Virus record (IMG/VR): IMGVR_UViG_3300042698_000013
Location: 1-28,322 of that record
Source of the DNA: a virus
Strand: one strand, 5' to 3'
Length of the DNA: 28,322 nucleotides
Every line of letters begins with the position of its first letter. Position 1 is the stretch's first letter. Shown here in pieces: positions 6,397 to 26,015 of this stretch. The notes beneath the pieces were generated by a model. It made no database searches and was not told the origin of the DNA. It saw nothing but the letters and a program-made list of their open reading frames with translations. Made by a program: the position numbers and the translations under genes.

Positions 6397-7677
6397 TTAT
6401 GGGAAGCTTGCAATGCGAACCATCACGCCAAAGTCAAAACCATTCGCCGCCGTCGCTGATGCCGTCCATGTCGTACCAGTCCCAGGGAACGTGCCATATG
6501 CTTGCGCTACACGATAGCTGGTCAAATATGGCGATGAACTGATCGCGTCATTCACATCGCTGCCAGGTATATTGCCACGCTCAAATCGAATTGTTGGCGT
6601 ACCATCGCTATTTAGCGCGAGTAGATACAGCCCAGGCGCAAGTTGCTGGCTAATAGATGCGCTCTTAAAGCCGAGCGAATCCGCCGCAACCGTGCCACCG
6701 TCAACGACAAGGCTTGTCGGCTGGCGGTTCACATCGGCATTGTAAATCGCCATACGACATGTTGTGCCGCCCGCGCCCGCTGCCGTTACCTCAAGGGCCA
6801 GCCGATCGATCGTCATGGTATTCCAGACAATCATCGGAAAATAGCGCGCCTGATTGGCAACAATCGCTGCCGCCGCCGATGAAAGGAATACCACGCCCGG
6901 TACACAAAGCTGCGCCGATCCGCCGAATAATGCGCGCCCCTGTGGCACGGCTGCTTGCGCCCCCGCAATGCTCAGCACCTGCGCACCGGTCAATTCCTCC
7001 ACATCGCCCGCGTTGACCGTGGCCCGCCCAAGGATGCGCGACGTGGCGCTGACGTTCTGGATCTTGGCGTAGGTTACGGCGTCGTTGTCGATATTGGCCG
7101 TGGCGATGCTGTTGAGCAGGGCAATCGTTCCAAGCGAAAGCAGCCCGCGCATCGTGGCATAGTCGGCAGCCGTGATTAGGCTGCGCCCGTTCGCGCTGGC
7201 ATCGCTGATCAAGCTAGCCGTGATGCTGTTGAGTAGCGCCAGCGTTCCGAATGACGGCTTATTCGGCAGCGTTGACCAGTCATAGTTACTGATCAGCAGG
7301 CGTAGTAAAATCGCGTTCGATAGGGTTATATCATCAGCGGCCCGCGTCCCCGCCTCACTCGCAATCGCCGCCGCATTCGTGCTATCCGCGGCTTGCAAGT
7401 CGGTAAAATCGCCCGCAATCGCCGCGTGCCTGACTGTCGCCCCCGCGCTGTGCGCGCTGGCGCTCGTGCCATCGAATGCGCGTGTTACCGTAAATGTGGT
7501 ACCGGCCTTTACGGTAACTTGTACTACCTCTTCAGTCGCCAGGCCGGGATCAAGCACGGCGGCGAACGGCGCAGCCGGCCAGCCGCTTGCGCTGGCAACC
7601 ACAAAGCTACCATCGCCCGCGCCTATCGCGCCGGTTAAGGTCGTATCAACAGCGGTGTTGCTGTAGTTACGCGCCAT
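6397..7677 (-). CDS. Phage fibre / appendage protein
   Basis: A 426-residue Ala/Ser/Thr-rich protein. Residues 10-90 match the widespread fibre-anchor pattern (TTLTGAIGAGDGSFVVASAS, then EEVVQVTV and FTVTRAFDGT followed by AHSAGATV). The middle has repeated short units such as ALLNSI and the fibre motif SRILGRATVNAGDVEEL (about residues 213-229). The last 190 residues form a beta-rich C-terminal domain (TTCRMAIYNADVNRQP, GLYLLALNSDGTPTIRF), which may be the host-contact or glycan-binding part. The start overlaps the end of the kinase gene by 11 bases. It is not known whether it sits on the head, neck or tail; its place on the head-proximal side of the tail genes leaves a head fibre possible. 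Being Ser/Thr-rich and next to the glycan cassette, it is a candidate acceptor for glycosylation. Confidence 0.75.
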   Translation of the reverse strand: MARNYSNTAVDTTLTGAIGAGDGSFVVASASGWPAAPFAAVLDPGLATEEVVQVTVKAGTTFTVTRAFDGTSASAHSAGATVRHAAIAGDFTDLQAADSTNAAAIASEAGTRAADDITLSNAILLRLLISNYDWSTLPNKPSFGTLALLNSITASLISDASANGRSLITAADYATMRGLLSLGTIALLNSIATANIDNDAVTYAKIQNVSATSRILGRATVNAGDVEELTGAQVLSIAGAQAAVPQGRALFGGSAQLCVPGVVFLSSAAAAIVANQARYFPMIVWNTMTIDRLALEVTAAGAGGTTCRMAIYNADVNRQPTSLVVDGGTVAADSLGFKSASISQQLAPGLYLLALNSDGTPTIRFERGNIPGSDVNDAISSSPYLTSYRVAQAYGTFPGTGTTWTASATAANGFDFGVMVRIASFP

Positions 7678-8923: not shown

Positions 8924-9133
8924 ATGGATTTATACATTCGCCACCATACGGTAAGCGAAGTATTAGTAGCCGATCGTGATACTGGATACGCCGTCGCTAA
9001 GTTCTTCTATCAGTGTGGCGATGACGGCAAGCCGAAATTTAATGCTCTGGCGCTTGCGCTTGCTTTTATAAATGACCAGCACACAGAAGATATTGCCGCT
9101 CTATCGACATCTGTAAAGCATCGAAGAGATTAG
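8924..9133 (+). CDS. Small plus-strand protein, unknown function
   Basis: A 69-residue frame on the strand opposite all other genes. ATG 8924 has GGAG six bases upstream and an extended -10 about 35 bases upstream. The protein (MDLYIRHHTVSEVLVADRDT onward) has a natural beta-beta-helix pattern with GYAVAKFFYQ and ALALALAFIN segments and normal residue composition, unlike the shadow frames elsewhere. The minus strand has no gene here, so this fills a gap of about 190 bases. It ends four bases inside the glycosyltransferase gene (convergent). I do not recognise the family; small regulators, anti-defence proteins or other late-acquired genes are possible. Confidence 0.6.
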   Translation: MDLYIRHHTVSEVLVADRDTGYAVAKFFYQCGDDGKPKFNALALALAFINDQHTEDIAALSTSVKHRRD

Positions 9134-11967
9134 CGCTTGCGACCTCTCGGAGCCGCTGTGGCCTGCTGTACCGTAGCCATCGGCATATCTTCAGCGCTTG
9201 CGGCCTGGGCCAATAGCTCAGGCGGTACCACGCGAAACAGTTCCATACCTGCAAGATGCTCCACATCACGCGGGTCAACATCGTGGTAACGGCTGTCTGT
9301 GTCGCGGCCAGCTTTGTACACCCGTCCGCTGGCCTTGCCGATATAGGTCTGCGCGCCCCATGAGTTGCCAATAAACTCCATTCGCACGGTGCCAGAAGTC
9401 GGCACGCTGGCAACATTCAGCATGCCACCTGTTGCCATTCCCAGCATACTATCAAGCGCCTGTTGCGCGGCAATGACGGTACTCTGCCCGCCGCAAGTGC
9501 CACATGGCATGACGATTTCCTCTCCTGATCGATAGGCCGCGTATCGGTCAAACAGCGCGGCTGCGGTTTCTTCTCCCAATGGCGTATAGGCGTGCGTGTT
9601 TTCATCGTCGCCCGGTTGCCGCGCCCTGAGCGCGGCGCGGGTGCGCTTGCCGGTTTCACGCCGGTAGATCAACATCGGCTGCGGTACACGGGTGCCACAT
9701 GCGCCGATAATCGCCAGCTTACAGAACAAATCCCAATCCTCGAAACATTTCAGCTTCTCGTCAAAGCCGCCGACTGAGCGCACCACATCGGTAGGGATCA
9801 GCGCCGTAACCGCGTGCATCAGCCCGCGCAGCATCTTGCGCTGGTCGTACTCTTCAACCTCATGCACGCCCATCGCGCCATCGATGCGCGTCTCATCGTC
9901 AAGCGTCAACCAATCGCTATAGGTGTACGTGCCGCCGCTTTCCACAAAGCCTCTCAGCAGCGCTTCCAGCGTGCGGGGTACAATCACATCGTCGGCGTCT
10001 AGGAACAGCACTAGCGGGGCGCGTGCGGCCTTCAGGCCTATGTTGCGCGCCGCCCCTGCCCCTGTTCTTCCCTTTGTCGTGATCACCCGCGCCCATGGGT
10101 GCGCTGTTAAAAAGGTATACGCGGGTGCGCCGGTATCATCAATGACGATACATTCCCAAAAGGGCATGGTCTGGGCTTGCACGCTATCGAGCGCGTCAAT
10201 CAAGGCTTTCTCATGGCCCGGCCCCACGGGTATGATCACACTCACAATCGGGTGTTGATGATGATGGACAGGCCAGGCGCGGCGCGGCGCGGGCGGATCG
10301 CCCTGCGCGCCGAATGGTACGATCTGCGCGTTCGGCTGGCGATCTTGCTGGATAGCCCGCATACCTTCCCTTGGATCGCCGGCCAATCGCCACGGAAGCC
10401 ATGCTGTCCAATCGCCGTCGCCGTCCTCCCCCCGGCTCTTGCTATCCGAGCGCAGCCGGTAGATCAGCGTGCTTTCATCGGTCACTTTGGCGATGCGAAC
10501 GCCAAACGAGCTTAGGCGTGTCCATAGGCTCGCATCTTCGGCCCGCCAGTCCCTAGCGCGGTAGCCGCCTGAGCGCTCGAATACCTCACGCCGCATCATG
10601 GCCGCGTAGGGCAGTTGATTAAGATGGGCTATCTGCGCGTGCCAATCAAACCGATCGCCCGGCCATTGGTTGCGCTTTCGATCTTCGCCTCGGTCGTTGA
10701 CGGTATCGAGATGCCCAAAGGCCACGTGTATGTTTGTGGCGTTGTCCAAAGCGTTCGATAGAATATCGAGTGCATTGGGGTTGAGCATGTCATCGGCATC
10801 CAAGAAAAGGATATATTTGCCTTTTGCGTGGCTTGCTCCATAGTTGCGCGCTCCTGATAGCTTCAAGTTCGATGGCGTCTTGATATAGCGAAAGCGGGTA
10901 TCATTCGCTGCCTTCATCCATCCGGCGCATTGCTGTTCGGTTATATCGGTTGATTGGTCATCAATGATGAGGCATTCCCAATCCGTTGCCGTTTGCTGAA
11001 GAACACTCCCCAGCGCATCGGGCAGGTAGCGGGCAAGGTTGTGGCACGTTACGATGACGCTGACTTTGGGGCGCTGCTGCTTGAAGTCGTGGTATACACG
11101 ATGATATAGCGCGGCGTACTGACCAATCTTATCTTTCCATTGCCAGCGCGCTTGTATATCGGAGATGCAATTCTTTGACAAGCGATCACGTTCGGCCAGG
11201 CAGCGGCGAATGGCCCCGGCGAGGGCATCATAGTCGCCATATTCGGCCAGGTATCCGGTTTCGCCTTCAATGACAATCTCCTCTTGCCCGCCATAGCGCC
11301 AGCCGGCCACAGGCACGCCAGCGGCCATCGCTTCTAAGGTGCCAATGCCAAAGGTTTCGCGTGCGGTGGCAAGGTATACCCCGGCTTGCTGGATCAGCGG
11401 CTTCATGGTTTCATACGGCATTGCGCCGAGCAACGCGACATTGGACGATTGACGGCCAAATGTTGACAGGAACGGCACGTCAGGCAAGAGCGCAGCCACG
11501 TCTTGCATATCACGCGGGTCGCTCACTTGGTCAGCGCGGGCCTTGTTCCATAGCACATAGCCGAGATGCGGGCGATCGTGCGCCCAATCGTCAGCGTCAA
11601 CACCGTGGTACACGACTTCGGGGCTGACAAGCATGCCGCGTGTAATCGCGTGCGCAACCCACTTGGACGGCGCGGTAATCGCCTGGGCGCGGGCCATGGC
11701 TTCAATCACGTGCTTGTTGATATCATCGCCCCACACGCCAAAGTTATAGCTCTCCCACATCAGGCCGTGGTTGTGCGAAACCATCGGCACGCCTAGCCGC
11801 TCAACGATGCCCGCACCATGGTTTGCTATCAAGTCAGCTTCGTCGGGGTTGTCTGTCACTTGGATGCCAAACTCAGGCAGGTACTTCACCTGGGCATCGC
11901 TGACACGGCGGATACCACCATCGCCCCGATCGGCATTCTTGTAGATTGGATTGATGCATACGCGCAT
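9130..11967 (-). CDS. Multidomain glycosyltransferase: GT4-GT2-GT2 with C-terminal extra domain
   Basis: A 945-residue protein from ATG 11967, which overlaps the FkbM stop as TAATG; the frame open to 12009 is only an upstream extension. Residues 1-295 are a GT4 (glycosyl transferase group 1) domain with EAMARAQAITAPSKWV and the ETFGIGTLEAMAAG donor-site motif (204-217). Residues 301-510 are a GT2 domain (VSVIVTCHN, DDQSTD, DADD at 391-394). Residues 574-790 are a second GT2 domain (VSVIIPVGPG, DADD at 657-660, FEDWDLFCK near 742). Residues 820-945 form a Cys-containing linker (MPCGTCGG) and a small beta-rich domain (VRMEFIGNSWGAQTYIG onward). Each GT2 domain keeps its metal-binding DxD. It probably builds a glycan of several sugars in one polypeptide; sugars and acceptor are unknown. 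Confidence 0.88.
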   Translation of the reverse strand: MRVCINPIYKNADRGDGGIRRVSDAQVKYLPEFGIQVTDNPDEADLIANHGAGIVERLGVPMVSHNHGLMWESYNFGVWGDDINKHVIEAMARAQAITAPSKWVAHAITRGMLVSPEVVYHGVDADDWAHDRPHLGYVLWNKARADQVSDPRDMQDVAALLPDVPFLSTFGRQSSNVALLGAMPYETMKPLIQQAGVYLATARETFGIGTLEAMAAGVPVAGWRYGGQEEIVIEGETGYLAEYGDYDALAGAIRRCLAERDRLSKNCISDIQARWQWKDKIGQYAALYHRVYHDFKQQRPKVSVIVTCHNLARYLPDALGSVLQQTATDWECLIIDDQSTDITEQQCAGWMKAANDTRFRYIKTPSNLKLSGARNYGASHAKGKYILFLDADDMLNPNALDILSNALDNATNIHVAFGHLDTVNDRGEDRKRNQWPGDRFDWHAQIAHLNQLPYAAMMRREVFERSGGYRARDWRAEDASLWTRLSSFGVRIAKVTDESTLIYRLRSDSKSRGEDGDGDWTAWLPWRLAGDPREGMRAIQQDRQPNAQIVPFGAQGDPPAPRRAWPVHHHQHPIVSVIIPVGPGHEKALIDALDSVQAQTMPFWECIVIDDTGAPAYTFLTAHPWARVITTKGRTGAGAARNIGLKAARAPLVLFLDADDVIVPRTLEALLRGFVESGGTYTYSDWLTLDDETRIDGAMGVHEVEEYDQRKMLRGLMHAVTALIPTDVVRSVGGFDEKLKCFEDWDLFCKLAIIGACGTRVPQPMLIYRRETGKRTRAALRARQPGDDENTHAYTPLGEETAAALFDRYAAYRSGEEIVMPCGTCGGQSTVIAAQQALDSMLGMATGGMLNVASVPTSGTVRMEFIGNSWGAQTYIGKASGRVYKAGRDTDSRYHDVDPRDVEHLAGMELFRVVPPELLAQAASAEDMPMATVQQATAAPRGRKR
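9508..9526 (-). promoter_or_regulatory. Possible internal ribosome binding site in the glycosyltransferase gene
   Basis: On the minus strand, AGGA (within GGAGAGGA) lies seven bases before an in-frame ATG at 9510. Initiation there would release the C-terminal 126 residues (9130-9510), which is exactly the non-catalytic tail domain after the second GT2. The coincidence of a ribosome site and a domain border makes a separate short product plausible, but the bases also encode ordinary residues (SGEEIV) of the long protein. Confidence 0.35.
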
Positions 11968-12695
11968 TAGTCGCGCTCCCAAGCCGTCAGCATAACGCCA
12001 TACGTCCAAACGATGCGATAGCCCGCATCTTCTAGTTGCTGGTGTATCTTCGCCAGCGCCATACCGTACTCGTCAATGAAGGTGTGAAACTGTACCATGA
12101 GCCGCTTTGGCAAGATGCCCTTGCCCAGCATATGCGGTAGCAGCCTATACTCATCGCCCTCGATATTCATCAGCATCAGGTCAACCACACCAATCTCAAG
12201 CTCGCTGAATGCCGCGCCAATCTCACGAATTGCGCCGGTACCACCCGCATACTCGCCCGCATCGGCTTTGGTAAATGAACAGCCGTCAGTCTCCCAATCG
12301 GCCATATTGAATGTGCCACCGCGATCCCCAATCCCAAAGTTCACAACCGTAGCCGCATCGCCCAATGCCCGCTTGCATACCTCGTATGCCCATAGCTGCG
12401 GCTCGAATACGAACAAGCGCGGATGGTAGCGCTCGGCTATTTGCAAGGCCCAGCGTCCCTTGAAGCCGCCGACCTCCACAACCGTGCTCTCACTGGTCAG
12501 CGGCCAATCAATCGCCTTCTGATCCCAAACATGCTCAGGATTGGCGGCGGCGGCTTTCGCTTCGCGTACTAGCTCATCCATGCGATGTGCGTGCGGATTC
12601 TCTGCCACGTCATCATCTTCTTTCCAGTGTTCCATGCGATCGGGGTCTTCGGGCAATGACCCTAACCAAAGCATTGGATTGACAACACTGCTCAT
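11967..12695 (-). CDS. FkbM-family SAM-dependent methyltransferase
   Basis: A 242-residue protein coupled by ATGA to the upstream methyltransferase. After a 60-residue N-terminal extension it has the Rossmann methyltransferase core: STVVEVGGFKGRWA (about 70-83, SAM-binding glycine loop), LFVFEPQ (acidic residue after strand 2), GGTFNMADWETDGCS, then VVDLMLMNIEGDEYRLLP (strand 4 and FkbM-type DxxKxDxE-like region, here with NIEGDE) and LMVQFHTF. FkbM enzymes usually O-methylate sugars or polyketides. In this cassette it may cap or modify a glycan. The family call is firm; the substrate is not known. Confidence 0.85.
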   Translation of the reverse strand: MSSVVNPMLWLGSLPEDPDRMEHWKEDDDVAENPHAHRMDELVREAKAAAANPEHVWDQKAIDWPLTSESTVVEVGGFKGRWALQIAERYHPRLFVFEPQLWAYEVCKRALGDAATVVNFGIGDRGGTFNMADWETDGCSFTKADAGEYAGGTGAIREIGAAFSELEIGVVDLMLMNIEGDEYRLLPHMLGKGILPKRLMVQFHTFIDEYGMALAKIHQQLEDAGYRIVWTYGVMLTAWERD

Positions 12696-13366
12696 CGTAG
12701 CCCCGTATCGAATACCTGCAAATTAGAAGCAAGCCAATGACTGGCCGGCCCGGTCACGTACCCAAACAGGTGCGCGATCTGGCGCGTCAAGTCCTCCCGG
12801 TAGCTGATGCCGCGCTCATGGAACATACCGCGCCATTCGTGCGCCGGCCGGCAGCCGACGTGATGCTCGCCGCGCTGCCCTGGAGGTGCCGCGCTGAAGA
12901 GCACGTAGCCGCTGGCGTCAAGCATATTGGGCTTGGGCCTGAGATGCCGCGCTATTGTGTCAACCAAAGTCTCATGGCTTTCAAGCGGTAAGTGCTCGGC
13001 AACTTCCATGCAGGTGATGAGATCAAACATCTTGAATGGCCCATCGGCGTCATGCTTGCCTATGCCGTTTGTCCAGATGATATGCTCGTCACGAATGGAT
13101 TCGTAGATATACATCGGGCGCGTCAAGTCCTCGTGTACAAACCAATGTTCTGGCCCATTGATCAGGTCAACCCCATAGGCATCGCTGCCGAGCTTGCGCG
13201 CACAGTTGACCATCGCGCCCGTGCCGCTGCCCAGGTCAAGGTAGCTCTGCGGTATGCCCATCCATGCCACGATCTGACAGAAGGCGCGTTCGTTCCATCC
13301 ATCGAACGGCGCAAGCGCAGCGCGCCGGGCGGCGATCTCGTCTGCTGTGGGCTGGGTATAGCTCAT
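12692..13366 (-). CDS. Class I SAM-dependent methyltransferase
   Basis: A 224-residue protein from ATG 13366 (ATGA overlap with the Cys-rich gene). SAM-binding motif SYLDLGSGTGAM lies at about residues 41-52, followed by DAYGVDL (acidic end of strand 2) and the strand-4 motif KMFDLITCMEVAEHLP. The C-terminal half has VLFSAAPPGQRGEHHVGCRP, which resembles methyltransferases associated with glycan and nucleotide-sugar clusters. The substrate is unknown; the context suggests a sugar or a glycosylated virion protein. Confidence 0.85.
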   Translation of the reverse strand: MSYTQPTADEIAARRAALAPFDGWNERAFCQIVAWMGIPQSYLDLGSGTGAMVNCARKLGSDAYGVDLINGPEHWFVHEDLTRPMYIYESIRDEHIIWTNGIGKHDADGPFKMFDLITCMEVAEHLPLESHETLVDTIARHLRPKPNMLDASGYVLFSAAPPGQRGEHHVGCRPAHEWRGMFHERGISYREDLTRQIAHLFGYVTGPASHWLASNLQVFDTGLR

Positions 13367-13611
13367 GGCTTTGCTCGATATTCAATACAACCAAAGTCGC
13401 CGCGTGTGTTCAGGTTTGTGTCGATTGGTGTGATCGGTGCCAGCGTGCCTGCAATAAATCCATGATTGCCGTAGCGAATGTCAACAAGTGGCTTTCCATT
13501 CGCGTGCGATGCCAATAAACATATGCCCCACACACCATCAGAGTGTGCCGTACCAGATTGCCAGTATCGACATGTGTTACATCGGCCCTCTTGCGGCTCG
13601 TTATAGCTCAC
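13363..13611 (-). CDS. Small Cys-rich, zinc-knuckle-like protein
   Basis: An 82-residue protein starting with GTG at 13611 in a GTGA overlap. It has CNTCRYW near the N-terminus, GICLL in the middle and DFGCIEY near the C-terminus, four Cys in the C-x2-C...C...C arrangement of many short phage proteins that may bind zinc. No enzyme motif is present. It lies between the SIS isomerase and the first methyltransferase and may be an accessory to the cassette or simply a passenger. Confidence 0.65.
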   Translation of the reverse strand: MSYNEPQEGRCNTCRYWQSGTAHSDGVWGICLLASHANGKPLVDIRYGNHGFIAGTLAPITPIDTNLNTRGDFGCIEYRAKP

Positions 13612-14090
13612 TTGCTCAACTCCTCAGTCAGCCAATGGCCGATGGCAAGATGGCAATCTTCGATAATGCCGTAATGCGTGTGTGGTACGCGCACCATCAG
13701 CGCATTCGAGTAGTACGGCGATAGTACGCTGGTCACGAGCGCAATTGGCATGTCGTGACAAATAAGCGTCTCGATATTGTCAGAGGTGCCAGAACAGCTC
13801 AGGCATATGATCGCATCGTTTGGGCGCGCAAGCCTGTGCATTTCTTCGCTTAGCGCATCGCCGTAGCTCTTGTCATTCGCCCAAGCGGTCAGCACTGCCG
13901 GATTACTCCCCAGCGCCTGTACGCGCCGCCCTGCCGCTTTGGACAGGTCGCATGCCCAATGCTGCGCGGTTGACGCGCTACCGCCGTTCCCAGCAAGCCA
14001 CAGCGTACCTTCACACGCCCATACAAAGTCAAGGAGCGGCGTGGGATCAAGCTTGGCAAGCGTGGCTTGTAATTCGTCAAAGTACTTCAT
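13608..14090 (-). CDS. gmhA: SIS-domain sugar isomerase, GmhA-like (sedoheptulose 7-phosphate isomerase)
   Basis: A 160-residue single SIS domain. Motifs: GNGGSAS (34-40), the phosphosugar-binding SCSGTSDN (98-105) and the C-terminal IIEDCHLAIGH (142-152), an order and spacing matching GmhA, which converts sedoheptulose 7-phosphate to D-glycero-D-manno-heptose 7-phosphate. His152 lines up with the catalytic His180 of E. coli GmhA. The helix after GNGGSAS reads AQHWACDLSK, placing Asp48 where the catalytic Glu65 of E. coli lies, so activity may be altered. It is somewhat shorter than the E. coli enzyme (192 residues). The pairing with an HddA-like kinase supports a heptose role; other SIS isomerases remain possible. 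Confidence 0.8.
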   Translation of the reverse strand: MKYFDELQATLAKLDPTPLLDFVWACEGTLWLAGNGGSASTAQHWACDLSKAAGRRVQALGSNPAVLTAWANDKSYGDALSEEMHRLARPNDAIICLSCSGTSDNIETLICHDMPIALVTSVLSPYYSNALMVRVPHTHYGIIEDCHLAIGHWLTEELSK

Positions 14091-14248
14091 GGGTAGATAT
14101 ACTCCCAGTCAATCACGCCACCATGCCATTGGCCGATCTTTGCGCCGTGGATACAGTTGCGTAGGCATCTCGGCAGCGCGAATGCCGCTGCCGGTAACGC
14201 TCGATAGGCGCGTATGCCGATAGCATACTCAGGTATGAAACAACTCAT
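14087..14248 (-). CDS. Small ORF in glycan cassette (53 aa)
   Basis: A 53-codon frame that starts at ATG 14248 in an ATGA overlap with the glycosyltransferase stop and ends in a TGA overlapping the ATG of the SIS gene. Both junctions match the coupling style of the operon exactly, which is the main reason to accept it. The product (MSCFIPEYAIGIRAYRALPA onward) has three Cys and a Trp-rich C-terminal end (KIGQWHGGVIDWEYIYP). No family is recognised. Confidence 0.6.
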   Translation of the reverse strand: MSCFIPEYAIGIRAYRALPAAAFALPRCLRNCIHGAKIGQWHGGVIDWEYIYP

Positions 14249-14913
14249 AGCATTGTCTCAGTCTTGACCGCGCCGATGTGAGCGAAATAGCCATCAGTCG
14301 GATAGCCCTCCGGCCAGACAATCAGCGGGCCATGCCCCGTGCGGTACTGAAATGCATAGGCTAATTCTGTATCGCCGGGTATCAGCCCGATCGGATAATC
14401 GCCATAGGCAGCGCGATAGCGCGCATGCCGCAAGCTGGGATGGCCTGTAAAGGCATAGAACGACGTATCCGGCCAATCACGCGGGATCGTATGGTAGCGC
14501 CGCCCTGCGAACGTCTGCGGCGGCGCAAGCTTGCTGCCATCGATATAGCCCAGGCGGATCATACCAAGCTCATCACTATCCATCAGCGCATAGGCGTGCG
14601 GCGTCAAGTCAAGTGGCTGCGTGAGTACAAAGTCATCTTCAAGCCAAAAGGTCAAGGCGCTCACGGTATCAGCCGCATCCCATGCGGCTATGGCGTTGCC
14701 GCCATAGCCGCGCCGCAGTGTGTGCCCGCCGACGAATGGTACATCGTCAAGCATGTCCCAAATCGCCGCCCAATGGTCAACCGAGCTGCCATCATCAGCA
14801 ATGTACCATAGTAGCTCACCGCCGTAGCGCACGTTCTCACGCGCCGCCGCAATCGTGCGTAAGGCGTATTCGGTACGCTGCCAGGTTTGCAAGATGATCG
14901 TAATCGGTTCCAT
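14245..14913 (-). CDS. GT2-like glycosyltransferase
   Basis: A 222-residue protein joined to the preceding gene by TAATG. It begins MEPITIILQTWQRTEYALRT, the usual first strand and helix of a GT-A fold, has the nucleotide-sugar acidic pair YIADDGSS (about 37-44) and the metal-binding LEDDFVL (about 91-97). The C-terminal part is Tyr/Trp-rich (YAFTGHPSLRH, PEGYPTDGYFAHIG). It is a single-domain, soluble enzyme without membrane helices. The sugar and acceptor are not known. Confidence 0.8.
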   Translation of the reverse strand: MEPITIILQTWQRTEYALRTIAAARENVRYGGELLWYIADDGSSVDHWAAIWDMLDDVPFVGGHTLRRGYGGNAIAAWDAADTVSALTFWLEDDFVLTQPLDLTPHAYALMDSDELGMIRLGYIDGSKLAPPQTFAGRRYHTIPRDWPDTSFYAFTGHPSLRHARYRAAYGDYPIGLIPGDTELAYAFQYRTGHGPLIVWPEGYPTDGYFAHIGAVKTETML

Positions 14914-15827
14914 TACTCGTGACTTTCAGCTTCGGCCAGCATGCGCCGGAACTCCGCTGCCGCTAAGCGCGGCGCGTCGTAGCTGGTGTAGGATCGCCCT
15001 GTCGCGCCAGTTATTGGGTAAATCCAGAAATGCTCTGCCATCTCATCGGCGGTTTCGTCAGGGTGTACCAAGTCCTCGTGCTTCTTTTCGACTGAGCGCA
15101 GCCCTGTCTCATGGATATCCGCACCCGGCGCAATGATATGGGCCATCTCGGATAGGCTCAGCGAGCGCATCTTTGGTACAACAATCACGCCTGCTAGGTG
15201 TGTAGCCGCTTCGGATATGAGCGCAACCGCATCGCTCTCGCCCATCCAAAAGCGCGTCATCTCAGGATCGGTTACGGTCAACGGCTGGCCTTGCTCGGCC
15301 TGCTTGCGCCAGATCGGGATCACGCTGCCGTTGCTGGCAACCACGTTGCCATACCGGCAGAGTGTGAAGATACACGGGATATCCGCTTGCGCCTGGAACA
15401 GCTTTTCCATCGCGAGCTTACTCGCGCCATAGGCACTGATGGCCTTGCACGCCTTATCGGTGCTGATGCCGATGCAGCGCTTGACGCCGCCCGCAATACA
15501 AGCGCGCACGACGTTGACCGAGCCGGTAACGTTCGTATCGTAGCAATTGATCGGCTGCTGCTCGGCGTCAGGCAGGCGCTTGACGGCTGCGGCGTGAATG
15601 ACCATATCGTGACCAGCAACAGCGGCATTCAGGCGCTCAGCATCGCGCACGTCGCCTAGCACGTAGCGCAACTGGCCGTAGCTCTGGCGCATCTGCGCTT
15701 GACGTAGCTCAGAACGTGAATAGATTGTGAAGGTGCAATCCCATCGCTCAGCCAGGGCCGTGCGTACAATCGCATGGCCGAGCGTGCCGCTGCCGCCTGT
15801 GATCAAGATGTTGCCGCTCAGGCTCAT
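14913..15827 (-). CDS. NAD(P)-dependent nucleotide-sugar dehydratase/epimerase, PseB/CapD-like
   Basis: A 304-residue extended SDR protein from ATG 15827 (ATGA overlap). The Rossmann motif LITGGSGTLG is at residues 8-17, the active site is carried by STDKA (122-126) and YGASK (133-137), and AAAVKRLPDAE (79-89), RYGNVVASNGSVIP and TDPEMTRFWM are hallmark segments of the UDP-GlcNAc 4,6-dehydratase (inverting 5-epimerase) group that includes PseB, FlaA1 and CapD-like proteins. These enzymes make activated deoxy-amino sugars for surface glycans. No membrane segment is present, so it is of the short soluble type. The exact sugar is uncertain. Confidence 0.85.
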   Translation of the reverse strand: MSLSGNILITGGSGTLGHAIVRTALAERWDCTFTIYSRSELRQAQMRQSYGQLRYVLGDVRDAERLNAAVAGHDMVIHAAAVKRLPDAEQQPINCYDTNVTGSVNVVRACIAGGVKRCIGISTDKACKAISAYGASKLAMEKLFQAQADIPCIFTLCRYGNVVASNGSVIPIWRKQAEQGQPLTVTDPEMTRFWMGESDAVALISEAATHLAGVIVVPKMRSLSLSEMAHIIAPGADIHETGLRSVEKKHEDLVHPDETADEMAEHFWIYPITGATGRSYTSYDAPRLAAAEFRRMLAEAESHE

Positions 15828-17779: not shown

Positions 17780-18514
17780 TTACGCCTGCCCAGGCGTACC
17801 GTTGATATTTCCAAACAGGTTTGTGACCAGATCGCCAAACTCGAATTGTTGATCGGCGGGTACCTGACCTTTAACCGCGCCGAGTAGTTGCTGATCCTGT
17901 GGTATCCACGGATTGACAAGCGTACCGCCGCTCTCGCTTGGTCGCTGCACAATCTCAGGTTGCAGGCCCATCAGCTCGTCAAGCTGTGCCTTCAGCGCGG
18001 TTTGCCGCGCCTCGTGATCCTTCAGCGATGCTTGAAGCGTTGCGATCTGCTCTGCCTTTTCGGCATCACTGGCGTCCTTCGTAGCCTGATAGGGTTGCAT
18101 CAGCCCTTGCACATGGCTTGCGACCTTCTTTTCGAGGTCAAGCGCGCCCATGACCTGGGATAGTCCAGCCTGAATTGCGCCCGCTACCGCTTCGCTAATC
18201 GCGGTCAAGTCCTCCGGCGATAGGGTCAAGCCGCCTTCGGCTGGCTCTTCCTCCATCGGTTCTTCGGCCATAACCTCCATATCGCCTTCCCCATCGTCCT
18301 TTTCTTCGACAACGGGCGGCACGGGCGGCATAGCCTTATAGGTCACGCCGTTGATCACCACATCGGGCAGCTCGATAACCGGCTCTTCAGCCTTATAGGC
18401 CACGCCCTGATCGGTTGCGGTCTTCTCGGTTGCCGATGCCTGCGATAGCAACCACGTCACGTCATCATCAGTGAAGCCATGCGCCTTCAGGCCTTCAATC
18501 TTCACTTTATCCAT
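17780..18514 (-). CDS. Nested scaffold protein from internal start
   Basis: An in-frame ATG at 18514 (residue 534 of the fusion) has AAGGAG nine bases upstream (18524-18529), a strong ribosome binding site lying exactly between the protease and scaffold domains. The 244-residue product (MDKVKIEGLKAHGFTDDDVT onward) would be a free scaffold protein: acidic middle (EEKDDGEGDMEVMAEE), a coiled coil and a short C-terminal tail likely to contact the capsid protein. The same nested design is known for lambda C and Nu3. The AAGGAG also encodes KE of the long protein, so translation needs proof. Confidence 0.6.
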   Translation of the reverse strand: MDKVKIEGLKAHGFTDDDVTWLLSQASATEKTATDQGVAYKAEEPVIELPDVVINGVTYKAMPPVPPVVEEKDDGEGDMEVMAEEPMEEEPAEGGLTLSPEDLTAISEAVAGAIQAGLSQVMGALDLEKKVASHVQGLMQPYQATKDASDAEKAEQIATLQASLKDHEARQTALKAQLDELMGLQPEIVQRPSESGGTLVNPWIPQDQQLLGAVKGQVPADQQFEFGDLVTNLFGNINGTPGQA

Positions 18515-20113
18515 AGTGGGTAGCTCCTTAACTGAGAACGCGGTAAAGCGATTTGACGCCTTACCACGAGGGACTAATGATCGTTCAAAGCGCCGTATAT
18601 GATGAAAGACGCCATCAGCGTCTGGTTCTGTGGGAAGATGGAGAAAGCCCAGTGATATTTCAAGCTCGCTGGCCGCTCGTGCGACCTTATGAGCAATGGC
18701 AGGGGTGCGAAACGTGCCGCTCTCAATCAGTACCCGCCCGTGCATCGCGTTAAAATCACAATCGCCTAAGTCAAGGCCGGGCGAATGCCACCAGCGCAGC
18801 GGGCCATAGCTGCCCGTTTCATCGGCAAAGGCGCAATCATCGGCCAGCGCCTTGGTTGATACAATCTCTTTGTCCCGGTCTTGGAACGCGGTTGACGATT
18901 GTGCGACCCAGCGATACTTGCCGCTGGCGTCTTTGAACACACGAAAGGTTTTGAGCGTGGCACGCTGGCCGGCTGCGGTCAAGACAATCTCACCCTTGAC
19001 GATGCGCGCTAGCCCGTTGCGGATAAGCGCCTGCGTATCCGCGTCGGATAGTTCCTTGCCATCGCTCAGGCTCTGCGCGGCTTCTCGCAACGCGGGCGCG
19101 ATCTGCTTAGCTGGCGCTTTCTCAGGCGTTTCTTTGGCAGGCTTGGCAGGCGTAACCGGCTTCTTGTTCGCTGCGGCACCCGCTACCCCGCCGACGCTTG
19201 GCGCGCTGCCGCGTGCGCCGCGCTTGGGCATGTCAACCTTCAGTGGCTTCTCAGCAGCGGGCTTCTCTGGTTTCTTCTTGCCACCCGCTGCGGCTTTGGA
19301 CGGCTGGCGCTTGGCTAACTCGCGCCCCATCTGTGCAGCGGCGCGCTTACCGGCCGCGTCTTGCTGGCGCTTGGCAGTGGCATCACGCCGCGATTGCTGC
19401 GCGGTCGCACGCTCTTGGCGCTTGGCGCTGGCATCGGTGCCGCGTGAGATGGCGTCAACGGCGCGCTGGTAGTCACCCGCCTGCATAGCGCTGACCACGG
19501 CGCGGCCTGTCGGCGTCATGCGATAGGTGCCATCGCTTGCGCGCTCGGCCAGGCCCATTTGCGCCAGCCCCGCGCCTTGTGTTGCGTCCGGCTGTTGCCC
19601 CTTGGCGAATGCCACCAGCGCTTTACTGCCCGATGGAGAGAGGCCGGTATCGGTATCGGCCATGCGCTTGGCTACGGCGTCAACGTTCTGAGCACGCTTA
19701 GCATCACGTTCCTGGGCGCGCTGCGCGTCGGTTTTCTTTGGCGCGGCTGGCTTGCGCCCCTTCGGCTTCTTGCCGGCCTTGCCACCGTCGCATGGGCCAT
19801 AGCGCCCGTGTACGTTACAGAGGTTGCCACGGATACGCCGCACGCCAGGGCTGATCAGTTCGCCATCTGCGCCCGCTGCCTTCAGCGCTGGCACGTTCAT
19901 CGCAATCAGGTCAGCGGTATGCGGATCGTAGGCATCGCTACTGACAAAGGCTTCAAGCTGGTCAAGGGTGAATGCTTTCGTGCGCTTGCCGAGCGGCTTG
20001 CGCTTGGCGCGTTTGGGGAGTTTCGAGAAGTCGGTTTCATCGGCCCACCGCTTAGCCCACGGTTGCCCGGTTGCGAATGCAAATCGTTGTTGAGCAGTAG
20101 AGCGAAATGGCAT
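17780..20113 (-). CDS. Prohead protease fused to scaffold
   Basis: A 777-residue protein. Residues 1-35 (MPFRSTAQQRFAFATGQPWA) are a conserved phage N-terminal motif, which fixes the start. Residues 97-108 hold a Cys/His knuckle (NLCNVHGRYGPC). Residues 110-340 are Lys/Ala-rich with two short winged-helix-like segments (about 155-215 and 340-388). Residues 388-530 are an HK97-type serine protease: FRVFKDASGKYRWVAQSS, WWHSPG with the probable catalytic His near 443, and ELEISLGFLH with the probable catalytic Ser near 487. Residues 534-777 are an acidic, coiled-coil scaffold (EKAEQIATLQASLKDHEARQ). The fusion cleaves itself and the scaffold during head maturation. It is unusually long at the N-terminus. 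No ribosome site precedes its ATG. Confidence 0.8.
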   Translation of the reverse strand: MPFRSTAQQRFAFATGQPWAKRWADETDFSKLPKRAKRKPLGKRTKAFTLDQLEAFVSSDAYDPHTADLIAMNVPALKAAGADGELISPGVRRIRGNLCNVHGRYGPCDGGKAGKKPKGRKPAAPKKTDAQRAQERDAKRAQNVDAVAKRMADTDTGLSPSGSKALVAFAKGQQPDATQGAGLAQMGLAERASDGTYRMTPTGRAVVSAMQAGDYQRAVDAISRGTDASAKRQERATAQQSRRDATAKRQQDAAGKRAAAQMGRELAKRQPSKAAAGGKKKPEKPAAEKPLKVDMPKRGARGSAPSVGGVAGAAANKKPVTPAKPAKETPEKAPAKQIAPALREAAQSLSDGKELSDADTQALIRNGLARIVKGEIVLTAAGQRATLKTFRVFKDASGKYRWVAQSSTAFQDRDKEIVSTKALADDCAFADETGSYGPLRWWHSPGLDLGDCDFNAMHGRVLIESGTFRTPAIAHKVARAASELEISLGFLHLPTEPDADGVFHHIRRFERSLVPRGKASNRFTAFSVKELPTMDKVKIEGLKAHGFTDDDVTWLLSQASATEKTATDQGVAYKAEEPVIELPDVVINGVTYKAMPPVPPVVEEKDDGEGDMEVMAEEPMEEEPAEGGLTLSPEDLTAISEAVAGAIQAGLSQVMGALDLEKKVASHVQGLMQPYQATKDASDAEKAEQIATLQASLKDHEARQTALKAQLDELMGLQPEIVQRPSESGGTLVNPWIPQDQQLLGAVKGQVPADQQFEFGDLVTNLFGNINGTPGQA

Positions 20114-20122
20114 ATGGGTAGC

Positions 20123-20154
20123 AAAAAGGCCCAGCGCGCTTATGCGCGTGGGCC
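20123..20154 (-). terminator. Intrinsic terminator
   Basis: On the minus strand GGCCCA-CGCGC, loop ATAA, GCGCG, one bulged C, TGGGCC is followed by TTTTT. The 11-bp GC-rich stem with a U run is a classic rho-independent terminator. It ends the transcript that carries the tRNA island and stops about 10 bases before the ATG of the protease gene, so readthrough or a hidden promoter is needed to express that gene. Confidence 0.85.
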
Positions 20155-20188
20155 GTAGGCTTTGCAGCGTAGGGCGGTATTCAGTTTT

Positions 20189-20306
20189 GCCGTATTGCGT
20201 ATCACTACTTACGTAGCGGCGCTCACGGGATACGGCACTCCATTGGTGTAGCCAGCTACGCCGTGTGATTACACGTCACTCGCCCGCACGCGATTGGCGT
20301 AGCTGG
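20189..20306 (-). ncRNA. Structured non-coding stretch downstream of tRNA-Trp
   Basis: Two hairpin elements lie between the tRNA and the terminator, with no ORF on either strand that looks coded. The first has 11-bp perfect arms at 20252-20262 and 20296-20306 (CCAGCTACGCC and its complement) enclosing a CGTGT-GATT-ACACG hairpin. The second has 7-bp arms at 20189-20195 and 20230-20236 (GCCGTAT and complement) enclosing CTAC-TTAC-GTAG (20205-20216). A short motif, GCTACRCCAAT on the minus strand, occurs twice. The regular nested stems suggest a functional RNA; the family is not recognised. Confidence 0.5.
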
Positions 20307-20308
20307 AC

Positions 20309-20385
20309 TGGTCGGGCCGGGGGATTTGAACCCCATCTCCGCCGACTTGGAGGCGGCATTCTACCGGATTAAACTACTTGCCCGA
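20309..20385 (-). tRNA. tRNA-Trp (CCA anticodon), structurally degenerate
   Basis: Minus strand. The D arm (TAGTTTAATCCGGTAGAAT), the anticodon loop CTCCAAG with CCA, and the T loop TTCAAAT with a GGGG/CCCC stem are all clear. The anticodon stem has four pairs and a C-U mismatch next to the loop. The acceptor is odd: TCGGGC pairs with GCCCGA over six bases but leaves no discriminator before an encoded CCA, and two extra bases lie between acceptor and D arm. It may be a working divergent phage tRNA, a decaying copy, or a tRNA mimic. Confidence 0.65.
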
Positions 20386-20398
20386 TGAAAGGTGATCT

Positions 20399-20479
20399 GG
20401 TATGCCAGGCCGGCTTCAACGGCCTTGGGATTCTGCGGCCACAGCGCGGGCCGTTTGGGAGGTACCAAACCAGCATACC
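20399..20479 (-). ncRNA. tRNA-like cloverleaf RNA
   Basis: Just upstream of tRNA-Trp on the same strand. Arms GGTATGC (20479-20473) and GCATACC (20405-20399) form a 7-bp closing stem. Inside are three hairpins in tRNA order: GTTTGG/CCAAAC with a 6-base loop, CGGCC/GGCCG with an 8-base loop CGCGCTGT, and GGCCG/CGGCC with a 7-base loop TTGAAGC. An 11-base stretch separates the last two. It has tRNA size and layout, but lacks T33, the D-loop GG and the TTC of the T loop, so it is not a normal tRNA. Confidence 0.5.
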
Positions 20480-20519
20480 CGATCGAAATGGCTAACAACC
20501 AAACCCCATGTCCAATGTG

Positions 20520-20528
20520 AGTATAGCA
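20520..20528 (-). promoter_or_regulatory. Extended -10 promoter-like site for the tRNA island
   Basis: Minus strand TGCTATACT: -10 TATACT with a TG extension, the same form as the plus-strand site at 8881-8889. It lies just after the stop of the 45-residue gene (20535). A start near 20513 would transcribe the cloverleaf, tRNA-Trp, hairpins and terminator. A TTGACA at 20538-20533 is too close to serve as its -35. Confidence 0.5.
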
Positions 20529-20534
20529 TATGTG

Positions 20535-20672
20535 TCAAACCCGATCCCGGCGCTCTTTACGAGTGACGATCGGGCTGGGCTTGCCGAGTACCTTGGCAAG
20601 CTGGATCACCGCTGCAACAAGACGGCGGTAGAGCTGTTCTAACTCGTCTTGGCTGGCATCAGGCGGGATCAT
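20535..20672 (-). CDS. Small ORF, last gene before the RNA island (45 aa)
   Basis: A 45-codon frame starting at ATG 20672 in an ATGA overlap with the upstream stop. The product is one amphipathic helical protein (MIPPDASQDELEQLYRRLVA) with a basic C-terminus (VTRKERRDRV). Its first four residues, MIPP, equal those of the gene before it, perhaps because both begin with the same coupled initiation sequence. Function is unknown. Confidence 0.6.
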   Translation of the reverse strand: MIPPDASQDELEQLYRRLVAAVIQLAKVLGKPSPIVTRKERRDRV

Positions 20673-22679: not shown

Positions 22680-22818
22680 TACAATGTTTGTGGGCTATTT
22701 GCGATACTCTCGTGGGCGAAATACCATACTGCTGTGCAATGTCTTTATACATCACCCCAGCACGTATCTTCGCAATAACTGCGATCGTCCGTTGTGATAT
22801 CTTGCCCTGCTCACCCAT
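22630..22818 (-). CDS. Small helix-turn-helix DNA-binding protein
   Basis: A 62-residue protein starting at ATG 22818, eight bases inside the portal gene's end. Residues 8-45 read as a homeodomain/resolvase-type HTH: helices RTIAVIAKIRAG, YKDIAQQYGIS and the recognition helix PTRVSQIAHKHCSD, followed by a basic tail (YARRREKYLADQP). It is encoded between portal and the Mu F-like gene, an odd place for a regulator. It might control late transcription or help packaging. Confidence 0.75.
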   Translation of the reverse strand: MGEQGKISQRTIAVIAKIRAGVMYKDIAQQYGISPTRVSQIAHKHCSDIYARRREKYLADQP

Positions 22819-24415
22819 CCTTGCTCGCCTCCTCTGCCCACTTGACCGCTTCGGCCCAATCTTCCTCTTTGGCCTTTGTTGCCATCTCAATATCGGATAG
22901 GCGCTTCCATCCTGAGAGATCGGCAGGGTGATTGACGGCGTATTCGTATGCCTCTTCATACGCTTTACTTGCGGCCCGCTCCATTTGGGCGCGCATATAC
23001 TCCATATTCGCAGCAACAAGGCGCGATACCATATCAGGATCATCGGCCTTCGTCGCTGGCACCGGTGCGACCGGCGCGGGCAACTGCCCCGCGTAGGGCG
23101 CGCGTGGCGTAGCTTCAACCGGCTTCGACTGATCGCCGCTATCAGTCAGCGTGCCTTGCGGCGTCACGTCTTGCGGCAAGAACTCAGGCGGTACCAAGCC
23201 CTCGTCAACCGCAATCTGGAGGGCCATGTCTTGCGTGATGATCGGCTGGTTGCCATTGAGCACAACAAGGGTATCCGCCTTCAGTTTGTTGAGCGTGGCC
23301 TTCATTTGCTGATCCCTGATATCGTTTGTCTTGACCTGAAAGATGGTTGCCTTTGGCATCACGAGGAAGTTAAGCTTATCTTCCAAGTCTTTGACGAAGT
23401 ATGGCAGCCCGCCCGCCTCTTCGGCGGCTTGCTCGGCAACCTGGGCCGATGCGCCGCTGTTCAGGCCGGCTGCGCGCTCGACCAGCTCATCGGGGTTGAG
23501 GCCGATCGCAATGGCATAGGTGCGCAAGCTGGACTTCTCAACCTGATCCACATCAAAACCATCGGCCACGCCGGCCAGGTCAAGCGGTGCGACGTTGATC
23601 GGCTGGTCGGTCTGAATAGGTACCATGACCGCGCCCTTATAGACAACGTGCCCCTTCCTGATCTTCTCGGCTTCGCTTGTTTCCATCGCATCTTGCAACT
23701 GCCTGCGCGACACGCCCGTGATGAAGTACAGCGTCAAGGCACGCGAGCCGGTGATCTTCTCACGGTAGTACGTCTTGGTTGCCGAGAGGGTTGTAATCGT
23801 CTGGAACGCACGCCGGGCGGCACAGCGGCCAATGCCCCAGAGCCTGGTTCGCGGACTAGGCATGTCACTCCCAAAGATCACCTGATCGCCTCTCAGCTTG
23901 TGCCAGCCGCCCTCCCAATCGATATACAGCACGGGGTAGTTAAGGTTGCCCGTGCGGTAGCAGCGGAAGCTATCAAGGTGGTACAGGCCCATGACCTTGC
24001 CATTGGCCTTGTTGCCCGCCCGCACAACCTCAATGAACCAGCCGTTATCCGTGGTCAGGAAGTCCGTCACCGTCTTGACCACGCCCTCACGGTACCTAGC
24101 CGGCCCGTCAAGGTTGCGGATCAGCCCCTGGCCGTATTCCGTGCGGCGCGTGCTATCGTCGCTATCGGATATCTCATAGCCGCGTACCGCGATCTTCGTG
24201 ACAGCCTTAGCGATGGCCGATGCCCACATATCCTCTAGGTCAAGCGTGGCCGCTAGCACCCGATCGCCGCCTCTGCTGCCGTGTACCGGCAGCGTGGCGA
24301 CGGGGCTGGTCATAGCGCCGGGGTCAAACACCGTCCATGCCCATACGCCCTGATCGGGCGATTGCACGAAGTCTTGCTTGGTGACGCTCCCCTTGCGGTC
24401 TATTAGGTCGGTCAT
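22811..24415 (-). CDS. Portal protein
   Basis: A 534-residue protein at ATG 24415 (ATGA overlap). Portals form the dodecameric ring at the head vertex for DNA entry. Seen here: alpha/beta wing and stem-like parts in a typical order, with MWASAIAKAVTKIAVRGYEI (about 63-82), WFIEVVRAGNKANGKVMGLY (about 125-145), a segment HLDSFRCYRTGNLNYPVLYI with FGSDMPSPRTRLWGIG, the helix KTYYREKITGSRALTLYFIT, and AGLNSGASAQVAEQAAEEAG. The last 90 residues are Pro-rich then helical and charged. Immediately after the terminase genes, as usual. Strong family resemblance by pattern and position. Confidence 0.85.
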   Translation of the reverse strand: MTDLIDRKGSVTKQDFVQSPDQGVWAWTVFDPGAMTSPVATLPVHGSRGGDRVLAATLDLEDMWASAIAKAVTKIAVRGYEISDSDDSTRRTEYGQGLIRNLDGPARYREGVVKTVTDFLTTDNGWFIEVVRAGNKANGKVMGLYHLDSFRCYRTGNLNYPVLYIDWEGGWHKLRGDQVIFGSDMPSPRTRLWGIGRCAARRAFQTITTLSATKTYYREKITGSRALTLYFITGVSRRQLQDAMETSEAEKIRKGHVVYKGAVMVPIQTDQPINVAPLDLAGVADGFDVDQVEKSSLRTYAIAIGLNPDELVERAAGLNSGASAQVAEQAAEEAGGLPYFVKDLEDKLNFLVMPKATIFQVKTNDIRDQQMKATLNKLKADTLVVLNGNQPIITQDMALQIAVDEGLVPPEFLPQDVTPQGTLTDSGDQSKPVEATPRAPYAGQLPAPVAPVPATKADDPDMVSRLVAANMEYMRAQMERAASKAYEEAYEYAVNHPADLSGWKRLSDIEMATKAKEEDWAEAVKWAEEASKDG

Positions 24416-24615
24416 GGCGTGTCCTCAATATCCGGTTCATGCCGGCCTTCAAGTTGAATAATCGGCACACCATCTAAGCTATGCCGCCATACAACCGGCT
24501 CGGACTTCCATCGGCGTAGTGCCGCTTGAAGCGCGGCGCGCTCTTCATCGGTTATGGGAGCGACGAACGACATATATACAATCCGCCCGTTCTGATCAAT
24601 CGTAGGCTCTATCAT
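24412..24615 (-). CDS. Hypothetical protein between terminase and portal (67 aa)
   Basis: ATG 24615 overlaps the terminase TGA, and its own TGA overlaps the portal ATG. The protein (MIEPTIDQNGRIVYMSFVAP) has two strands, a helix (DEERAALQAALRRWKSE), then two more strands and an acidic tail. No family is recognised. The position suggests a packaging or portal accessory role. Confidence 0.65.
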   Translation of the reverse strand: MIEPTIDQNGRIVYMSFVAPITDEERAALQAALRRWKSEPVVWRHSLDGVPIIQLEGRHEPDIEDTP

Positions 24616-26015
24616 GTATTCCTCAGCTTCCAGCACAAATAGCGCAGCGCATCAGGCCCGTGGTTGTGCGCGTCGATTGGTTCACCACGGTCATTCAAGC
24701 GATACGCGCCCATCTCATAGCGCAAGTGTGTGCAGCGCGGATGGACATACACCCGCCGCCTGCCGTTCGTATCCTTTGCCAGAAAGCGGCGGGTTGTCTT
24801 GATACTCTCGTCAATGCTCTCAGGCTTGCCATAGGAGCCAATGCCATAGGTTTGCAGCCGCCCGCGTAATGCGGCGGCTGCACTATCAATCACGGCAAAC
24901 TCTGGCGATGGATAGCCCAGCGCAAGTACGCGCTCGATATGCGTTTCTTCAAGCAACTTGACCGCGTAATCTTCGTAGAATACATTCAACCCGCCATCGT
25001 CGCGCTCTTGCACGAGCAAGAATACACGCGGGCTGCTGCCTTCGGTGTACTGCCCGGATTGCGGATCAAGCTGGCCGTGATAGCCATCATCGCCCGCCCA
25101 CATGATTGCGCCGCCGTTCGGGTCAAACTCTGCCGCTTCAGTCACGTTGCCATCGTCGGGGCCATCGCTCCAAATATCATACACCAGACCGGATGCCGCT
25201 GTGAATGCCTCCAGGTCATTCGCCGGGTACTCACGTAGCACGCTGGCCGTATCGCCTGATGCTTCGATGATCTTCTGATCGCGCCAGCCCTCACCCCGAT
25301 CAGGGTGCGCAAACCACGGCAGGAAGATCGCCTTGTAGCCGTTCGCACCAGCCTTGGCGTGTTGCCAGAACTGATGATAGGCCGTCCCTGGGCCATCGGC
25401 GCTACTGATAATGAAGAGCTTGCCGCCCGCGTCGATGGTCGGCTTGACGGCGGCTAAGGTTTGACGCGGCCATGCCATAAAGGCCCATTCGTCAAGGATA
25501 GCCAGGGCTGCGGTTAACGATCGGCCTGCGTTCTTGGTCGCAGCCAGGCTGACCACGCTACTTGCGTTCGACCATTCCAGATCGGCGGTGTTATCTTTAA
25601 CGAGCTTTGGCATAAGCGCAACATCGTCGTGGTGATGGTGCATAAAGCTTATGCGGTGGATAAGCTCGTCAGCTTCGAGTTGACCACGCGACAGGCAGAG
25701 TACCGGCTGACCGGCATACAGTGTACACATACGCAAGGCATACAGGCACGCCAGCCAGGATACGCCGAGCTGGCGAGCCTTCAACACAACAAGGAGTTGC
25801 GTATCCGCCATCGTTTGTAAAAGTGCTGTTTGCTCTTCCCAAACAATAAAGCGAACGTGAGCTATCTCGCTCCCATCTGGTACCTCAATCTGCGTGCGTG
25901 CGGCGAATGCGCCAGCCGTCTGCTCGCGCATCTTGGCTTGCCAGGCTGCACGCCGCCGACGTAACTCTAGCTCAGCTTGTGCTCTTAGCTTCAGTGATGG
26001 CGAGTAGTTCAGCAT
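24612..26015 (-). CDS. terL: Terminase large subunit
   Basis: A 467-residue DNA-packaging motor. The ATPase domain has a Walker A-like VVLKARQLGVSWLA (76-89, the deviant K/R-x-R-Q-x-G form common in phage terminases), Walker B LAILDEWAF (171-179) and the coupling segment IISSADGPGTAYHQFW. The C-terminal nuclease domain carries AVIDSAAAALRG and NHGPDALRYLCW. N-terminal residues 1-50 are helical and likely contact the small subunit. ATG 26015 overlaps the small subunit gene by 44 bases in another frame. All key residues of the ATPase look intact. Confidence 0.93.
   Translation of the reverse strand: MLNYSPSLKLRAQAELELRRRRAAWQAKMREQTAGAFAARTQIEVPDGSEIAHVRFIVWEEQTALLQTMADTQLLVVLKARQLGVSWLACLYALRMCTLYAGQPVLCLSRGQLEADELIHRISFMHHHHDDVALMPKLVKDNTADLEWSNASSVVSLAATKNAGRSLTAALAILDEWAFMAWPRQTLAAVKPTIDAGGKLFIISSADGPGTAYHQFWQHAKAGANGYKAIFLPWFAHPDRGEGWRDQKIIEASGDTASVLREYPANDLEAFTAASGLVYDIWSDGPDDGNVTEAAEFDPNGGAIMWAGDDGYHGQLDPQSGQYTEGSSPRVFLLVQERDDGGLNVFYEDYAVKLLEETHIERVLALGYPSPEFAVIDSAAAALRGRLQTYGIGSYGKPESIDESIKTTRRFLAKDTNGRRRVYVHPRCTHLRYEMGAYRLNDRGEPIDAHNHGPDALRYLCWKLRNT

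Follow-up and report, generated by a model that had tools for sequence, protein, structure and literature searches.

A candidate late-promoter leader RNA ending at an intrinsic terminator, with tRNA-like elements in some members, upstream of head genes in a clade of uncultured phages

A non-coding island on the minus strand of an IMG/VR-type virus record of 28 kb (28,322 nucleotides, the whole stretch analysed, hereafter the window or W) lies at about 20113-20534 and, judged by comparison with related contigs, is not random spacer, being probably a regulated leader or small RNA instead of an empty junction. We lean slightly towards reading it as a late-promoter leader RNA, which would end at an intrinsic terminator before the head-morphogenesis operon in the manner of the pR'-tR' unit of lambdoid phages. 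The comparison supports the promoter-leader-terminator architecture, the homologous 3' module and the clade-wide position, and beyond these we infer transcription, late timing, control of readthrough and any function of the tRNA-like parts. In about 26 uncultured relatives a promoter is followed by 70-560 nt of untranslated sequence and then by a terminator ~8-20 nt before the 777-aa-type head gene; by sequence comparison, this uncultured phage clade has a concrete candidate RNA family that Rfam does not include. An earlier note, made from the letters of the window alone, had proposed one transcript of linked structures, a view supported by the retention of promoter and terminator at the same spot in these contigs; a close relative with random spacer at this position did not turn up among those inspected.

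The ORF listing contains no minus-strand ORF longer than 45 aa in the island, in agreement with the earlier claim that 20123-20534 holds no credible ORF, and the predicted complete transcript of 392 nt is more stable than expected (z = -2.96; 0/100 shuffles equally stable). The placement of the island between connector and capsid genes was not sustained, as directly upstream lie small ORFs of 155, 76, 70 and 45 aa, and the downstream 777-aa gene (17780..20113, minus strand) is without demonstrated capsid identity. The ATG of this gene at 20113 is conserved in alignments of relatives; it has no Pfam or PDB match, and in our own reading it may resemble a prohead protease or scaffold gene. This head-protease-like gene is without a Shine-Dalgarno sequence, and most relatives have the terminator U-tract ~8-12 nt ahead of the ATG (L002, L007, L014, L016, L030, L041 and others). 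The 45-aa ORF (20535..20672, minus strand) overlaps the promoter with its 3' end, and L002, L007 and L186 have comparable ORFs in this position. A portal-like gene occupies 22811-24415, and among the head genes only the terminase gene (24612-26015) was backed by a database match; the major capsid protein (MCP), portal and protease identities found no backing in Pfam, PHROGs or PDB, and the functions of the downstream genes were assigned from gene order and motif reading. Structure models of the MCP-like protein (pLDDT 34) and the protease domain (pLDDT 42) were too poor for searching. Relatives were collected by scanning uncultured viral contigs with the 777-aa, MCP-like, 155-aa and portal-like proteins, and many were found; no cultured phage relative of the W head proteins was found, nor any relative in GTDB genomes.

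The promoter (20520..20538, minus strand) consists of TTGACA at 20538-20533, a spacer of only 7 bp and TATACT at 20525-20520 (TTGACA-CATATGC-TATACT), and it overlaps the conserved 45-aa ORF at its stop codon. A TG before the hexamer makes the previously noted extended -10 site, TGCTATACT at 20528-20520, which holds. When TTGACR-Nk-TAYAVT was counted across all loci, which overlap and come from relatives that are not independent, k = 7 gave 11 distinct contexts and k = 8 gave 8, compared with 6 each at the classical spacings of k = 17 and 18, 5 at k = 19 and 0-3 at other spacings. A chance origin of the short-spacer promoter is strongly disfavoured, because a stricter pattern had 24 exact matches in 31 records and none for the reversed control. 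Ordinary N17 spacing is present instead in L002, L007, L012 and L015. The motif before the leader is conserved, enriched and position-specific, which gives the island the promoter ahead of a short untranslated stretch that a pR'-tR'-type unit would have; on these counts TTGACR-N7/8-TATAMT is an unusual promoter class. The same pattern, usually with TG before the -10 element, was also observed upstream of lysin/amidase-like genes in related phages (L046, L047, L190, L191, L196, L198, L201, L208, L217 and others), the amidase/lysin identity of these genes being our own reading. Since the same promoter type precedes such genes, it is probably a clade-wide late promoter class, and because head and lysin genes have this short-spacer promoter in common, how late transcription is turned on in the clade can be addressed directly in a laboratory strain.

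The TTGACA box sits at about -25, the position at which lambdoid phages carry the Q-binding element, and in phage 21 the protein 21Q binds DNA as sigma region 4 binds -35 elements (PMC6606751). The correspondence offers a lead, as both are -35-like boxes lying downstream of the ordinary -35 site but ahead of the -10 element; the element of phage 21 is a TGAGCA direct repeat, whereas the island box is TTGACA and has no known binding protein. Searches for a sigma70 region-4 domain as reader of the box gave sub-threshold matches only, and the Q/antiterminator families PF06530 and PF03589 had no match in 15-16 relatives, some of them incomplete records.

The best conserved part of the RNA is its 3' end. 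In W, a linker, ACTGAATACC-CGCCCTACG, and a GNRA mini-hairpin (20155..20188, minus strand; GCT-GCAA-AGC at 20168-20159) are followed by an intrinsic terminator (20123..20154, minus strand), which has its stem at 20154-20128 and a T5 run at 20127-20123 that ends about 9 nt before the ATG. The same succession, ACAACTG-RATACC-n-CGCCC-ACGCTGNRAAGC and then a terminator, was aligned in W, L186, L002, L007, L124, L086 and L116; most of them show the GCT-GNRA-AGC mini-hairpin with hardly a change, L116 having a different loop. A covariance model, R1, built from seven members and run over 918 kb, matched 20121-20188 in W and recovered members outside the training set, with E-values of 5e-7 (L039), 7e-7 (L081), 7e-4 (L041), 0.007 (L078), 0.01 (L042) and 0.014 (L012) and weaker matches in L051, L050, L031, L059, L035, L072 and L038. 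By inspection, the matches lie just upstream of the 777-aa-type gene, except in L081, where an insertion intervenes. Because non-training members were found before the same gene, the 3' modules share ancestry and not just position, and on this evidence the linker, mini-hairpin and terminator are homologous across phages.

The terminator, standing between the promoter and the first head gene as in a pR'-tR'-type unit, had been recognized earlier and is borne out by its fold (z = -3.72, -22.7 kcal/mol). In the alignment, 95.9% of the cells of its helix are paired and 7 of 14 pairs show two-sided changes; the covariation score of 0.537 is above all 500 shuffles (0.215 +/- 0.043), and slid registers do not exceed 0.156. 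The covariation proposed as a check on relatives was therefore obtained for the terminator helix and not for a wider fold, since any conserved terminator would show the same. It is very improbable that the hairpin and U-tract mainly help translation of the head gene to start, or stabilize its mRNA, and terminate little: such a role would suit the position of the U-tract, which most listed relatives have ~8-12 nt before the start codon with no Shine-Dalgarno sequence between, but long G+C-rich stems followed by T4-T6 are typical of strong intrinsic terminators, and a sub-clade without the hairpin still has the gene.

Most complete relatives inspected have the promoter, an untranslated stretch and the intrinsic terminator. 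In our own delimitation, with island limits drawn by eye, the distance from leader to ATG ranges from 77 nt (L014) to 561 nt (L042). The middle of the leader is swapped freely among phages and is conserved in neither sequence nor length, and leaders of about 70-80 nt (L014, L030, L038 and L041) still keep promoter and terminator, which is why a gate on the head operon fits better than a specific ncRNA gene. As the terminator lies 8-20 nt before the conserved ATG, any mRNA of the 777-aa gene from an upstream promoter must pass it; leaky or regulated readthrough is hence the most economical assumption, and a short terminated RNA would be a necessary by-product. Against such a gate, neither of the Q/antiterminator families PF06530 and PF03589 was found in 15-16 relatives, whose records are fragments, and in one sub-clade (L017-L022, L028, L054, L065 and L071) the gene comes straight after the promoter, with no leader and no terminator, so that the gate would be dispensable there. 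An insulating terminator with an internal promoter is a possible alternative, the upstream late genes running in the same direction.

Under the favoured leader reading, the promoter would produce a short folded untranslated RNA (~390 nt in W), and polymerase that passes the terminator by leakage or antitermination would go on to make the head mRNA, with the protease-like gene first and the MCP-like gene after it. The terminated RNA would be an abundant by-product that could function as a small RNA or be processed into one, and the middle of the leader would tolerate exchange, so that tRNA or tRNA-derived elements could repeatedly have landed or been retained there. Head-protein expression in these phages is thus predicted to be gated by a terminator. 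Lambda 6S RNA comes from a pR'-tR' unit. The leader of this lambdoid unit is likewise known to become an sRNA, StxS of Stx phages (PMC7873438, PMC8065619), and Q lets polymerase read through (PMC6606751); by analogy, antitermination may act at the island terminator. Both systems share a promoter, a short untranslated transcript (predicted for the island) and an intrinsic terminator upstream of late genes. They differ in that the island lies within the head gene cluster whereas pR'-tR' precedes lysis genes, and in the unusual promoter spacing, the tRNA-like parts of the leader and the lack of a detected Q family.

Within the variable middle of W, two stem elements are each more stable than at least 199 of 200 shuffles. 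The 11-bp stem CCAGCTACGCC/GGCGTAGCTGG with inner hairpins (20252..20306, minus strand; z = -3.72) agrees with its earlier description, and the element described as a 7-bp stem with an inner hairpin is real in the same sense (20188..20237, minus strand; z = -3.98) but its stem, TGCCGTAT/ATACGGCA, has 8 bp. The latter is the positional counterpart of 8-10-bp stems in L002, L007, L116/L016 and L124, and also of a tRNA-like element in L186. A stem before the linker was considered as a general family trait and rejected, being clear in L002, L007 and L116, weaker in W, L124 and L186, and absent in L039, L050, L086 and L081. A tandem duplication of the two elements (GCTACGCCAATCGCGTGC / GCTACACCAATGGAGTGC, 15/18 identical) was matched by 2/40 simulated sequences and is not claimed. 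The 5' stretch (20396..20485, minus strand; closing stem GGTATGC/GCATACC), previously regarded as a cloverleaf, is not significantly stable (z = -1.54; 14/200 shuffles fold equally well), and it occurs in W only, with no counterpart in any relative.

Between these structures lies a degenerate tRNA-Trp with a CCA anticodon (20309..20384, minus strand), which was recognized as such in the earlier note and is confirmed by ARAGORN, by the T-arm+CCA motif and by Rfam family RF00005, at 31.2 bits just above the gathering score of 29. It resembles tRNA-Trp in this score, its anticodon, the intact T-loop TTCAAAT and the encoded ACCA end, and departs from it in having only five good acceptor pairs, a weak D-stem and a mismatch at 31-39, the closing pair of the anticodon loop; by alignment and direct reading, the acceptor has non-standard pairs, and the full set of intact stems (7-bp acceptor, D, anticodon and T) is not present. 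This is the only element that passes both ARAGORN and Rfam, the others in the islands being tRNA-like by anatomy only. tRNA-like elements ending in CCA were detected in at least four phages: W, L186, L042 (two) and L050 (3' half). In L186, whose portal protein is the nearest to that of W (74%), a non-canonical 77-nt element replaces the ~320-nt middle of W; it has a 7-bp acceptor, a 5-bp T-stem, the loop TGCAAGT and an ACCA end, together with a shortened D-arm and a 16-nt 'anticodon' loop. L042 contains a degenerate Met(CAU)-like tRNA at about 3375-3445 and a second element at 3544-3608, and L050 has a T-arm with CCA extending up to 4582. A strict T-arm+NCCA search, in whose listing W is entered as L001 and L042 as L013, gave 11 matches on both strands of 2.35 Mb of loci; five of them fall in the islands (W, L050, L186 and two in L042), which make up 4.8 kb and where ~0.01 would be expected by chance. 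The six matches elsewhere include one true tRNA-Met (L202) and an 86-nt element in L199 (3080-3165; loop TGCAAGT, ACCA end, not called by ARAGORN) that directly precedes a gene resembling the small terminase subunit; judging by the latter, tRNA-like leaders may also precede genes other than the head-protease-like one. Relaxed ARAGORN settings gave matches everywhere across the islands and were uninformative, and at the DNA level neither the island nor the tRNA resembled known phages beyond chance.

These elements bear on two further explanations. We regard as unlikely a stand-alone, moron-like ncRNA gene that carries a promoter and terminator of its own and works in trans through its tRNA-like and stem elements, for example by decoying host factors that bind or cut tRNA, or by base pairing in the manner of an sRNA. 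The strong promoter and terminator, the significant stems of W, and the CCA-ending elements in four island contigs, with nearly half of the T-arm+CCA matches inside islands, would be expected of such a gene; the middle is, however, unconserved in sequence and length and almost missing in several phages, most members are without tRNA-like parts, and no common structured core extends beyond the 3' module. It is similarly doubtful that the middle represents captured tRNA genes and debris in an ordinary promoter/terminator junction, with a decaying tRNA-Trp and only promoter and terminator of importance. The tRNA-Trp is indeed barely above threshold, with mismatches in acceptor and anticodon stem, the middle differs in every phage, and the 5' stretch is no more stable than shuffles, but sequence conservation extends beyond the terminator into the linker and GNRA mini-hairpin, and acceptor stem, T-loop and CCA are kept while D and anticodon arms vary, which neutral decay would not predict. 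As an improbable extension of the favoured leader reading, tRNA-like structures (acceptor/T-arm and CCA, with abnormal D and anticodon arms) might serve as functional modules in a terminated late RNA whose promoter, of a new phage late class TTGACR-N7/8-TATAMT, would be recognized by way of a phage factor contacting the box at about -25. The island provides a case of tRNA-like pieces entering the putative leader of a head operon.

A kinship with the large phage RNAs GOLLD and ROOL, raised earlier, is unsupported at the thresholds used: neither matched in W or in 22 relative loci, the searches being run at gathering score in W and relative loci, at E<=10 in five more of the loci and at E<=5 in the island. 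The Rfam check of the window thus returned the tRNA (RF00005, weakly) and no GOLLD, ROOL or any other family; a weak resemblance to the c-di-GMP-I riboswitch RF01051 (16.6 bits against a gathering score of 35, E 1.3), confined to the terminator stretch, was rejected. In GOLLD the 3' part is conserved and the 5' part variable, and the linker sometimes contains tRNAs (PMC12286853); the island RNAs share with GOLLD and ROOL that they would be phage-encoded structured RNAs associated with tRNA. The island RNAs are 70-560 nt long, most below 300, whereas many GOLLD members exceed 800 nt, and their conserved part comprises only linker, mini-hairpin and terminator.

Several other features were observed in these loci. 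The late region of W includes glycosyltransferase and nucleotide-sugar epimerase genes (9130-15827). The Rfam int-alpA RNA (RF02996) has no match at gathering score in W and is present in six related loci (L012 8338-8403, L011 9032-9097, L051 8783-8848, L086 1043-1111, L005 9273-9339 and L006 4568-4634), directly after the MCP-like gene in L012. In L081, a group I intron (RF00028) at 6771-6957 lies within the MCP-like gene region, and an insertion also splits the leader element from the protease-like gene.
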